In this document: one piece after another, positions 30,727 through 33,160 of the stretch
How the letters are laid out: each line of letters opens with the position of its first letter
Position numbering within the stretch: position 1 is the first letter of the stretch
Assembly: GCF_001956985.1 (NCBI RefSeq)
Contig: NZ_CP019082.1
Span: 1,798,001 to 1,862,000, forward strand
DNA length: 64,000 bases
From: Paludisphaera borealis
GTDB taxonomy: Bacteria > Planctomycetota > Planctomycetia > Isosphaerales > Isosphaeraceae
Direction of reading: 5' to 3'
Notes under the pieces: model-generated
Seen by the model: only the letters and a program-made list of their open reading frames with translations
Databases searched by the model: none
Told to the model about the DNA's origin: nothing
Made by a program: the position numbers and the translations under genes

Positions 30727-31809
30727 ATGAGCGATCTGTTGACCTGGTCGCCGATCCCTCTGGGCCGGTGGTTTGGAACGACGGTCAAGGTCCATGTCTG
30801 CTTGATCTTGTACGTGGCGTTCCGGCTGCTGCTCGCGCCGTTCGCGGTCGCGGCGGATTCGGGAATGAAGAATCTCGAACAGACGGCGGCGTGGCTCGCG
30901 CTGCTGCTCCTGGCCCTCGCCATCCATGAAGCGGCCCACGCGGCGACCGCCTTCCTGCTCGATTGCGACCAGGAGGACGTGCATCTCTGGCCGCTCGGGA
31001 ATCTGACGGGTCCTTCGTACACGGCCCGCGGCGTCGACTCGATGCTCGTGGCGATCGCCGGGCCGCTGATCAGCGGAGCCCTCGCCCTGGGGATCGCCGC
31101 CGGCCTGGGACTGATCGCCGACGCCCAGTTCGTCTGGAACCCGTTCAGCAACAAGGCTGACGTCGGCGCTCCCTGGATTGATGCCACGACCCAGGCGGCG
31201 CCGTTGTCGATGGTCTGGTGGATCGGCTGGTTCGGTTTTCTCAATTACATTCTGTTCCTCGTCAACCTGCTCCCCGCCCTGCCGTTCGACGGCGGCCGGC
31301 TGTTCCGCGGCTTTCTGGCCAATACGTCGATCGTCGCGTCCAAGGACGGCATGATCGCCCCCTGGACGGCGCGCGCCACGGCGGCGATCCTCTTCCTGGT
31401 CGGGGTGGTGCGGCTGTTTGCCGGCGACCTAGGGGACGGGGCGACGCTGATCGGCGTGGCTGTGCTGATCGAGCTGTTCGTGCGGTCGGAGTCGCGGATG
31501 CTCGAGGACGGCGGGTTCTTCGACGACGGCGTCTTCGGCTACGACTTCTCCGAGGGGTATACTAGCCTGGAGGGGAGCGCGGCGGTGGTTCGCCCCCACC
31601 GCGAGAGCGCCCTCGAACGATGGCGGCGGCGGCGGTCGGACGTGCGCCGGCGACGTCGGATGATGACCGAGGCCGCCGAGGAGCGTCGGATGGATGAGAT
31701 CCTCGACAAGCTCTACCGCCAGGGCCGGTCCGCCCTCACCGACGAGGAACAGCGTTTTCTGATCCGCGTCAGCGCCCGATACCGCAATCGTCCGAAGACC
31801 CAGGAATGA
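30727..31809 (+). CDS. Site-2 protease family (M50) membrane metalloprotease
   Basis: 360 aa. The first zinc motif is HEAAH (residues 67-71, in LALAIHEAAHAATAFLLDCD), and the second is the LLPALPFDGGRLFRGF segment with the zinc-binding Asp. About four to six transmembrane segments surround them. A soluble C-terminus of about 100 residues is Arg-rich, with RRRRSDVRRRRRMM. Site-2 proteases cut membrane-embedded anti-sigma factors or signal remnants. Its substrate is not encoded nearby. The stop overlaps the ATG of the next gene (ATGA), so translation is probably coupled. Confidence 0.9.
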   Translation: MSDLLTWSPIPLGRWFGTTVKVHVCLILYVAFRLLLAPFAVAADSGMKNLEQTAAWLALLLLALAIHEAAHAATAFLLDCDQEDVHLWPLGNLTGPSYTARGVDSMLVAIAGPLISGALALGIAAGLGLIADAQFVWNPFSNKADVGAPWIDATTQAAPLSMVWWIGWFGFLNYILFLVNLLPALPFDGGRLFRGFLANTSIVASKDGMIAPWTARATAAILFLVGVVRLFAGDLGDGATLIGVAVLIELFVRSESRMLEDGGFFDDGVFGYDFSEGYTSLEGSAAVVRPHRESALERWRRRRSDVRRRRRMMTEAAEERRMDEILDKLYRQGRSALTDEEQRFLIRVSARYRNRPKTQE

Positions 31810-32300
31810 ACGTGTTGGAAATTCTCAACAACAAGCCCGCCCCGAAGTCGAAGGTGCGCAAGCCGAAACGCGACGAGTTGAAGCCGGGCGAATGCCTGTG
31901 CGATTTTTGCACCGGCAAGTGCTGCCACTATTTTTCGCTGCCGATCGACGCCCCCCAGAGCTGGGACGACTACGACTCGATCCGCTGGTACCTGGCCCAC
32001 GGGCAGACCATCGTCTACGTCCACGAGGAGCAGTGGTATCTGCTGGTGATGACCAAATGCCAGTACCTGCTCGCCGACAACCGGTGCGGGATCTATCTGA
32101 ACCGCCCCAAGATCTGCCGGGAGTACAAGACCGACGATTGCGAGTACGACGGCGGCTGGGCGTTCGAGAAGGTCTTCGAGACCCCCGAGCAAATCTGGGA
32201 GTACGCCGAGGCGATGCTCCCGGCCCGCCGCCGGCCCGGCCGCGCGGGTGGTCCGGTCTTGCCGATCGTGACCCTCGGAACGTCCGCCCCGATCGTATAA
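31806..32300 (+). CDS. YkgJ-family cysteine-cluster protein
   Basis: 164 aa. The Cys-rich motif ECLCDFCTGKCCHYF, then KCQYLLADNRCGIYLNRPKI, then the later CREYKTDDCEYD place it in the YkgJ/CxxCxxCC family, which probably binds zinc or an iron-sulfur cluster. Biochemical role is not established. It starts inside the stop codon of the site-2 protease gene, which makes a functional link with that protease plausible but unproven. Confidence 0.85.
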   Translation: MNVLEILNNKPAPKSKVRKPKRDELKPGECLCDFCTGKCCHYFSLPIDAPQSWDDYDSIRWYLAHGQTIVYVHEEQWYLLVMTKCQYLLADNRCGIYLNRPKICREYKTDDCEYDGGWAFEKVFETPEQIWEYAEAMLPARRRPGRAGGPVLPIVTLGTSAPIV

Positions 32301-32393
32301 GATGAAGACGTTCGCGGACGTGTGCGAGGAAGCCGACTTCGGTGGTGCCTTGACCTACAGGGAAACCGGCGCCGGCCAGACCAAGGCGAAGCC

Positions 32394-32954
32394 ATGGCGA
32401 TTCGATCGAACCACTACGAAGCGGCCTTCGAGGCCTACATCCGCTCGCTGCGGGTGCCGTGCGTGGCCATCGATGAAGCCAAACGGGCGATTTTCGGCGA
32501 CGAAGGGGTGAAGAACCCCGACTTTTTGCTGTATCCTCGATTCGCCGACAACCTCGTGGTCGAAGTGAAAGGCAAACGGAGCAAGAACCGCCGTGGGCGG
32601 CGCGACTGGGAAAACTGGGTGACGACCGACGATCTCGACGGCCTGGTTCGCTGGCAGACGATGTTCGGACCGGGCTTCCGATCGATCCTGTCGTTCGTCT
32701 ACGCCGAGCCTCCCCAGATTTTTCCGCTGCCGCGCGACAACGGGGCGTTCGCGTTCCGGGGGCTCGAATACCGATTCTGGGCCGTCGGTCTCGACGACTA
32801 CCTGGCGCACCTGCGGTCGCGCGGGCCGGCCTGGAAAGCCGTCGCGATGGCCCGCCGGGCCTTCCGCCGCCGCGTGAGGCCGCTGCTCGAATGGCTCCCC
32901 ATGCTCTCCGAAACACCGAAACGCCCCCAACCCGTCAAGGAACGCGAACGATGA
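32394..32954 (+). CDS. HYExAFE family protein with PD-(D/E)XK-like motif
   Basis: 186 aa. The N-terminal sequence NHYEAAFEAYIRSL contains the HYExAFE signature (His7-Tyr8-Glu9-Ala10-Ala11-Phe12-Glu13) that defines this planctomycete family. Residues 42-59 read PDFLLYPRFADNLVVEVK: Pro-Asp followed 14 residues later by Glu-x-Lys, the pattern of PD-(D/E)XK nucleases. The Arg/Lys patch KRSKNRRGRR follows. A nuclease fold is therefore suggested, but activity is not known. The start at 32394 has AAGG upstream; the frame is open to 32322 without conserved sequence. The stop overlaps the ATG of the next gene (ATGA). Confidence 0.83.
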   Translation: MAIRSNHYEAAFEAYIRSLRVPCVAIDEAKRAIFGDEGVKNPDFLLYPRFADNLVVEVKGKRSKNRRGRRDWENWVTTDDLDGLVRWQTMFGPGFRSILSFVYAEPPQIFPLPRDNGAFAFRGLEYRFWAVGLDDYLAHLRSRGPAWKAVAMARRAFRRRVRPLLEWLPMLSETPKRPQPVKERER

Positions 32955-33160
32955 AGTTTGACACGCGCCGCTGGTTTTCCCGGATCGGGGCGAGTTTGCT
33001 CGCCCTCGGCCTGGTCGTCGCCCCCTGCCCGTCGGTCCACGCCCAGGAAGAGCCCGGGGGGGACGCCGAGTCGAAGGGCCGGCCGCTCGACGGCTATTTC
33101 GGCGCCGGCATCCTGGCGTTCGGCGCCCTCTACCTGATCGGCAAGAGCGCCCGCCGCTGA
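32951..33160 (+). CDS. Small secreted or membrane protein of unknown function
   Basis: 69 aa, not recognised. An N-terminal signal-like segment (RIGASLLALGLVVAPCPSVHA) is followed by a short acidic/polar stretch (QEEPGGDAESKG), then a hydrophobic C-terminal segment (GYFGAGILAFGALYLIG) ending SARR. So it may be inserted by two hydrophobic helices or be processed and anchored. It is translationally coupled to the HYExAFE gene by an ATGA overlap and lies 35 bp before the aminotransferase gene. Codon use matches its neighbours, which supports it being real. Confidence 0.68.
   Translation: MKFDTRRWFSRIGASLLALGLVVAPCPSVHAQEEPGGDAESKGRPLDGYFGAGILAFGALYLIGKSARR

Follow-up and report, generated by a model that had tools for sequence, protein, structure and literature searches.

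What does the HYExAFE gene of Paludisphaera borealis encode, and on what would its product act? The gene lies at positions 32394-32954 on the forward strand of the window, the 64,000-nucleotide stretch of DNA that was analysed, as an open frame with an ATG start and 186 aa followed by a stop; the mechanical open reading frame for the same gene begins upstream, with a GTG at 32322. The initial annotation assigned the product to the HYExAFE family and saw in it a PD-(D/E)XK nuclease-like signature. The family assignment holds: NCBIfam model NF038001 (HYExAFE) matches the window protein with 177.3 bits, far above its curated cut-off of 60. A Pfam scan gave no family for this protein, and 41 HYExAFE members gave weak, scattered matches, the best of them to the SfsA nuclease domain (PF03749) in a single member (E 0.0055), the other 40 giving no SfsA match at E up to 1. 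SfsA is itself a predicted PD-(D/E)XK protein and, unlike HYExAFE, carries an extra N-terminal OB-fold domain, according to PMC1189080. When a 41-row HYExAFE profile was used to search solved structures by sequence, none was retrieved at E up to 10. The window protein also gave an E of 0.17 with the restriction-enzyme model NF046055. In the open-access literature searched, no paper was found under the name HYExAFE, nor one on an Hjc-like endonuclease in bacteria.

Conservation was followed through an alignment of 156 rows, made up of 116 distinct proteins from loci and 40 proteins fetched separately from among 57 genomes whose profile match came without a locus. The 140 locus proteins comprised 117 distinct ones, from which a single metagenome contig (L068) was dropped; its HYExAFE frame stops after 27 residues though similarity continues beyond. 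Eighty of the loci are the best 80 of 413, and the patterns used to find them cover helix 1 as well as residues 22-31. Among these, selection favours E9 and E13 but leaves residues 40-80 unaffected; for the 40 fetched rows the search was by profile. Only seven of the 186 columns are invariant over all 156 rows: K40, D43, K59, G60, D80, F101 and W147. The residues named in the initial annotation, P42-D43 and E57-V58-K59, sit where it placed them: K40-N-P-D43-F44, at 32511-32525 (+), corresponds to motif II, and E57-V58-K59, at 32562-32570 (+), to motif III. Asp43, Lys59 and also Lys40 occur in 156 of 156 rows, and position 57 is aspartate in 101 rows and glutamate in 55, with no other residue. 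The motif match is more than chance, because so few columns are invariant, yet these include two of the three named residues, the remaining one being always D or E. The proline did not fare as well. Position 42 is F in 78 rows, P in 38, L in 24, M in 13, A in 2 and V in 1, and the family motif is therefore to be written xD-(D/E)xK, together with a helix-1 acid and an aspartate that opens helix 2.

These last two are likely further active-site positions, beyond those in the initial annotation. The helix-1 acid is most probably E9 of the H7-Y8-E9 segment (32412-32420, +): position 9 is E in 125 rows, D in 29 and a gap in two, and thus acidic in all 154 rows that have a letter there. E13, the second glutamate of the family name, was considered for the same role and rejected; glutamate is kept there by 132 of the 156 rows and replaced with S, T, K or A by the other 24, whereas position 9 stays acidic. 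Asp80 (32631-32633, +), found in 156/156 rows, opens helix 2 and is the likely motif IV. The basic patch KRSKNRRGRR, offered earlier as part of the signature, is present at K61-R70 of the window protein, within a loop of residues 60-74 (32571-32615, +) that varies across the family. At least six lysines or arginines occur in this loop in 25 of 36 rows from the window's own family versus 7 of 120 other rows, and in 16 of 18 rows of one group (L162-L179) the loop is shortened to six residues. Neither the proline nor the basic patch can thus be retained as a feature of the HYExAFE family.

The initial annotation had also suggested a restriction-endonuclease-like fold. AlphaFold2 models were made of the window protein (41 relatives in the alignment; pLDDT 83.5, pTM 0.80) and of a distant member, L173, about 28% identical to it (37 relatives; pLDDT 93.6, pTM 0.90); the two underlying alignments have some rows in common. 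Both predict that fold, with the Hjc-type Holliday-junction resolvases as the nearest structures in the PDB. The window model has a helix at 7-18, strands at 23-25, 44-46 and 53-62, a helix at 78-91 and a strand at 95-105, and the L173 model shows the same order. Residue 9 falls in the first helix, Asp43 opens strand 44-46, Glu57 and Lys59 lie in strand 53-62, and Asp80 is in helix 78-91, predicted positions that fit the restriction-endonuclease-like fold. The fold and an intact active site can be taken as almost certain. Both checks proposed with the initial annotation, residue conservation and structure prediction, thus came out in its favour to the extent given here, and its nuclease prediction is supported after three corrections: the proline is dropped, the basic patch is dropped, and two site residues are added.

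Hjc (PDB 2wcw, 1gef, 1hh1, 1ob8) is the best fold match for both models. With the window model, the first 14 Foldseek matches in the PDB are all Hjc or Hje, the best being 2wcw_B (E 9.4e-5). VIA-align superposes it on A. fulgidus Hjc (2wcw_C) with a Z of 13.8 and an rmsd of 2.4, all 121 of the 121 residues of that chain being aligned; the first 12 entries are again all Hjc or Hje, followed by RecU (9.0) and I-Ssp6803I (8.6) and, further down, by the N-terminal domain of Eco15I (8.3), NhoI (8.1) and the splicing endonuclease 2zyz (7.5). With the L173 model, the first 21 Foldseek matches are all Hjc or Hje. Here VIA-align gives A. fulgidus Hjc a Z of 12.7; the Hjc of Sulfolobus and that of P. 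furiosus reach about 10, and Hje is level with RecU, each at 9.0, so that A. fulgidus Hjc alone, and to a lesser degree the other two Hjc, stands apart. Since Hjc tops the lists of both models and Hje only equals RecU for L173, the predicted likeness appears specific to Hjc, above all to that of A. fulgidus, although a shared fold alone does not prove a shared function. RecU of Firmicutes (PF03838; 1y1o, Z 9.0, rmsd 4.6), the next best fold, has a lower Z and a higher rmsd than Hjc, and no match to it was found in the 18 planctomycete genomes tested.

The correspondence with Hjc can be followed to individual residues. In P. furiosus Hjc the site consists of E9, D33, E46 with K48, and D61, representing motifs I to IV (PMC1913061). 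In a forced global profile alignment these residues face HYExAFE E9, D43, E57, K59 and D80, respectively; a local alignment pairs only E57, K59 and D80, and the register around motif II hinges on gaps and is not certain. The Hjc dimer positions given in PMC10140301, V24, V35, F68 and F72, face HYExAFE columns that hold V, L or I at 24 (144/156), L, I or V at 45 (152), W at 87 (153) and F or L at 91 (153). The dimer-interface columns are thus hydrophobic or aromatic in both families, a likeness that is suggestive at most. In contrast, R10 and R25 of Hjc, described in the same paper, are not conserved, arginine occurring in 16/156 rows at position 10 and in 5/156 at position 25. HYExAFE also differs from Hjc by an inserted loop that, in most members, separates strand 3 from helix 2, by a longer tail, and by conserved residues of its own, K40, W75 (155/156 rows) and W147. 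Unlike the archaeal Hjc, it is bacterial and coexists with RuvC.

Profile comparisons place the family in the same superfamily at a greater distance. The 156-row HYExAFE profile scores 29.8 against nine Hjc sequences (P 4.5e-4, probability 33%), while 100 column shuffles reach at most 19.3, the reversed profile 15.1, and nine clusters of neighbouring ORFs 10.6-15.6. Against YraN (UPF0102, PF02021), a member of the same superfamily represented by 12 sequences out of 15 loci fetched, it scores 28.4 (P 9.2e-4, probability 23%; maximum of 100 column shuffles 19.9, reversed profile 16.1). This weak match spans helix 1 through motif III, and the conserved Glu of YraN faces E9 of HYExAFE. The Hjc and YraN profiles score 55.1 against each other, so HYExAFE, judged by these profiles, belongs to the PD-(D/E)XK superfamily and is more distant from Hjc and YraN than they are from one another. 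None of the 41 members matches the Pfam models of Hjc (PF01870) or YraN (PF02021) at E up to 1. Because both models fail and only weak profile links to both remain, HYExAFE is best classed from its sequences as a family of its own, a predicted new branch of a well-known nuclease superfamily. It does not stand in for YraN: 58 of the 59 class genomes, that of the window included, have a separate YraN gene, and that explanation was rejected. A true Hjc as the source of the family was rejected as well. Among 99 genomes of the phylum, a single one (G075) has a match to it, which is weak (24 bits, cut-off 21.1) and occurs without HYExAFE; PF01870 was found in none of the 15 HYExAFE-carrying genomes among the 99 scanned, nor in any of the 10 in a scan of 18 genomes, and the viral contigs scanned with P. 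furiosus Hjc contained no relative.

With an active site of this kind HYExAFE is very probably an active nuclease. Phosphodiester bonds would be cut with the help of one or two metal ions, presumably magnesium, bound by Glu9, Asp43 and Glu57; the role of Lys59 would be to position or activate the water that attacks the bond, and the site would be completed by Asp80. DNA, rather than RNA, is the probable substrate. By analogy with Hjc, the enzyme may act as a homodimer on branched DNA, either four-way junctions or related repair intermediates; this is the best single guess in view of the resemblance to Hjc and of the hydrophobic or aromatic residues that occupy the columns facing its dimer positions. 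It is a tentative one, a branched substrate having somewhat less than an even chance. The reading preferred here is that of a housekeeping, metal-dependent PD-(D/E)XK nuclease, active as a homodimer on branched DNA in recombination or repair beside RuvC, and as a whole it is given a probability of about 0.4. The substrate could well differ from that of Hjc, because R10 and R25 are not kept and because a related UPF0102/Hjc-type protein expressed by others had no detected activity, according to PMC10140301.

HYExAFE may instead be a PD-(D/E)XK nuclease with another DNA target, either a nicking or flap repair enzyme or one specific for a sequence or a modification, its Hjc likeness then reflecting the minimal size of the domain. 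This is a serious alternative, at odds of roughly one against two. In its favour, the profiles tie HYExAFE to YraN as well as to Hjc, a near-equality of 28.4 and 29.8 that, as far as sequence goes, counts against an Hjc-specific reading; type II and modification-dependent enzymes, Eco15I and NhoI among them, do appear in the structure list, though later. The margin of A. fulgidus Hjc over the next fold (13.8 versus 9.0, and 12.7 versus 9.0), extending over the whole Hjc chain, argues against it, as does the lack of any methyltransferase or defence match among the window genes examined, which cover part of the window. Two further points in its favour, the presence of RuvC and neighbours without a recombination link, bear directly on the preferred reading.

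RuvC was found in 341 of 392 genomes of the phylum. None of the 40 drawn from this class lacks it, and of the 87 genomes that carry HYExAFE, 79 have it. The resolvase job is therefore already filled in these organisms, which counts against reading HYExAFE as a junction resolvase. RuvC is missing from 8 of 87 genomes with HYExAFE versus 43 of 305 without, a loss that is not commoner with HYExAFE, and displacement of RuvC was rejected as a general account of the family. One genus, g140, shows a different pattern. All six genomes drawn (G158, G173, G242, G285, G295, G321), which are 80-89% complete, have RuvB and HYExAFE, and none of the six has RuvC above threshold (one match in G242 is sub-threshold, E 0.26), Hjc or RecU. 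A RusA-like gene is present in all six, and also in three of three tested relatives that keep RuvC. In family f17, eight listed genomes (G067, G097, G116, G134, G151, G166, G181, G195) have neither RuvC nor HYExAFE, nor Hjc or RecU, and only G097 has RusA. A takeover of RuvC's role is weakened by these data, because the RusA-like gene occurs with or without RuvC, the genomes are incomplete, RuvC loss is no commoner with HYExAFE and f17 lacks both; the g140 pattern is a lead rather than support for a takeover. The strongest form of the Hjc comparison would make HYExAFE the equivalent in bacteria of archaeal Hjc: an additional Holliday-junction resolvase, inherited from an early ancestor within Planctomycetota, that works beside RuvC and may have replaced it in some lineages. 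This is considered unlikely.

The distribution of the gene supports the housekeeping part of the preferred reading. HYExAFE was found in 54 of 59 near relatives, almost always as a single match. A phylum-wide draw gave 87 of 392 genomes, 36 of the 40 in this class and 51 of the 352 outside it, and none of 14 control genomes had it. Of the best 80 of 413 loci in named genomes, 79 have record titles naming planctomycetes and one reads only "bacterium". In the tree, Isosphaeraceae-like and Gemmataceae-like proteins (seven rows each) form clades (100/100), as do 29 rows that are mostly from Phycisphaerae (97/86); the labels were assigned by the analyst, some unclassified rows being placed with the Phycisphaerae. 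One protein inside the Isosphaeraceae clade (L087) comes from a record titled Candidatus Kuenenia stuttgartiensis, perhaps a mislabelled bin. Weak matches to profile positions 40-108 (E 3e-4 to 1e-3) were also seen in frames of 932-949 residues (G338:C1:4636915, G188:C1:1183300, G295:C3:592774, G104:C1:385504); these may be larger proteins that include a nuclease domain of the same kind. The best guess is that HYExAFE is a housekeeping gene, because it is usually single-copy, occurs in most genomes of the class, keeps its gene order across classes and follows the families in its tree, and because the window protein has no PADLOC or PHROGs match.

The same data bear on a role as a defence or mobile-element nuclease. 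PD-(D/E)XK domains are frequent in such systems, and one member (L040) gave a weak PADLOC match, HEC-02B (E 0.0075). The window protein itself has no match in PADLOC or PHROGs, three HYExAFE members have none in PHROGs, and viral contigs searched with the window protein, a query that detects close relatives only, gave no confirmed relative. Single copies as the rule, families that coincide with clades and the kept gene order also argue against a defence or mobile function, which is very improbable. A phage origin was rejected on the viral-contig and PHROGs results.

The neighbourhood is conserved in a way that says little of repair. Upstream of the gene in the window, at 31806-32300 (+), lies a 164-aa CxxCxxCC protein, zinc- or iron-chelating (PF03692, 37.2 bits, cut-off 23). 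Such a gene, on the same strand and no more than 3 kb away, stands upstream at 37 of 95 loci and downstream at none; bioB is downstream at 26 loci and upstream at none, and a ketoacyl synthase downstream at 24 and upstream at one, all counts being lower bounds, as many contigs end early. Of the 95 loci, 55 had gone into the neighbour profiles, leaving 40 distant loci as an independent check; these gave seven CxxCxxCC genes, seven HisS, six BioB and one ketoacyl synthase, the last on the other side. The gene order extends from Isosphaeraceae to Phycisphaerae and therefore points to an old inherited locus, with no sign of a repair operon. HisS, BioB, the CxxCxxCC protein and the ketoacyl synthase are not repair genes, which counts against a repair role.

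One of these neighbours raises the question of RNA. The hisS gene lies upstream within 3 kb at 15 of 95 loci and downstream at none, also a lower bound, and its recurrence in seven of the 40 distant loci is what an RNA-processing nuclease might lead one to expect. RNA-splicing endonucleases share the fold, 2zyz being in the structure list, but at 7.5 it is far below the 13.8 of Hjc, and the catalytic triad of the splicing endonucleases differs. The adjacency to hisS may also be operon inertia, bioB being as steady a neighbour on the downstream side. RNA processing is thus improbable, though less so than defence.

Directly downstream, at 32951-33160 (+), is a small protein of 69 aa whose start is signal-like and which has a single membrane-like segment; its ATG overlaps the stop codon of the nuclease gene (ATGA). 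The window copy has no Pfam or NCBIfam match. Similar small proteins, with tails that resemble KSARR or KRSHLD, stand directly downstream at 25 of 93 loci, for example at L064, L094 and L104, and often with the ATGA overlap, versus 10 of 846 random positions. At one locus (L197:815-1702, -) no stop codon ends the HYExAFE frame, which extends into a tail that has a membrane-like segment; this looks like either a fusion to the small protein encoded downstream or an artefact of assembly.

Planctomycetes stand out among bacteria for the biology of their cells and genomes. In one of their classes most genomes carry this gene, as do 87 of 392 genomes across the phylum, and its product is now a predicted nuclease with five named residues. 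If junction resolution is its function, bacteria would routinely have on their chromosomes, beside RuvC, a resolvase of the archaeal type, and the reason for this redundancy would become testable.
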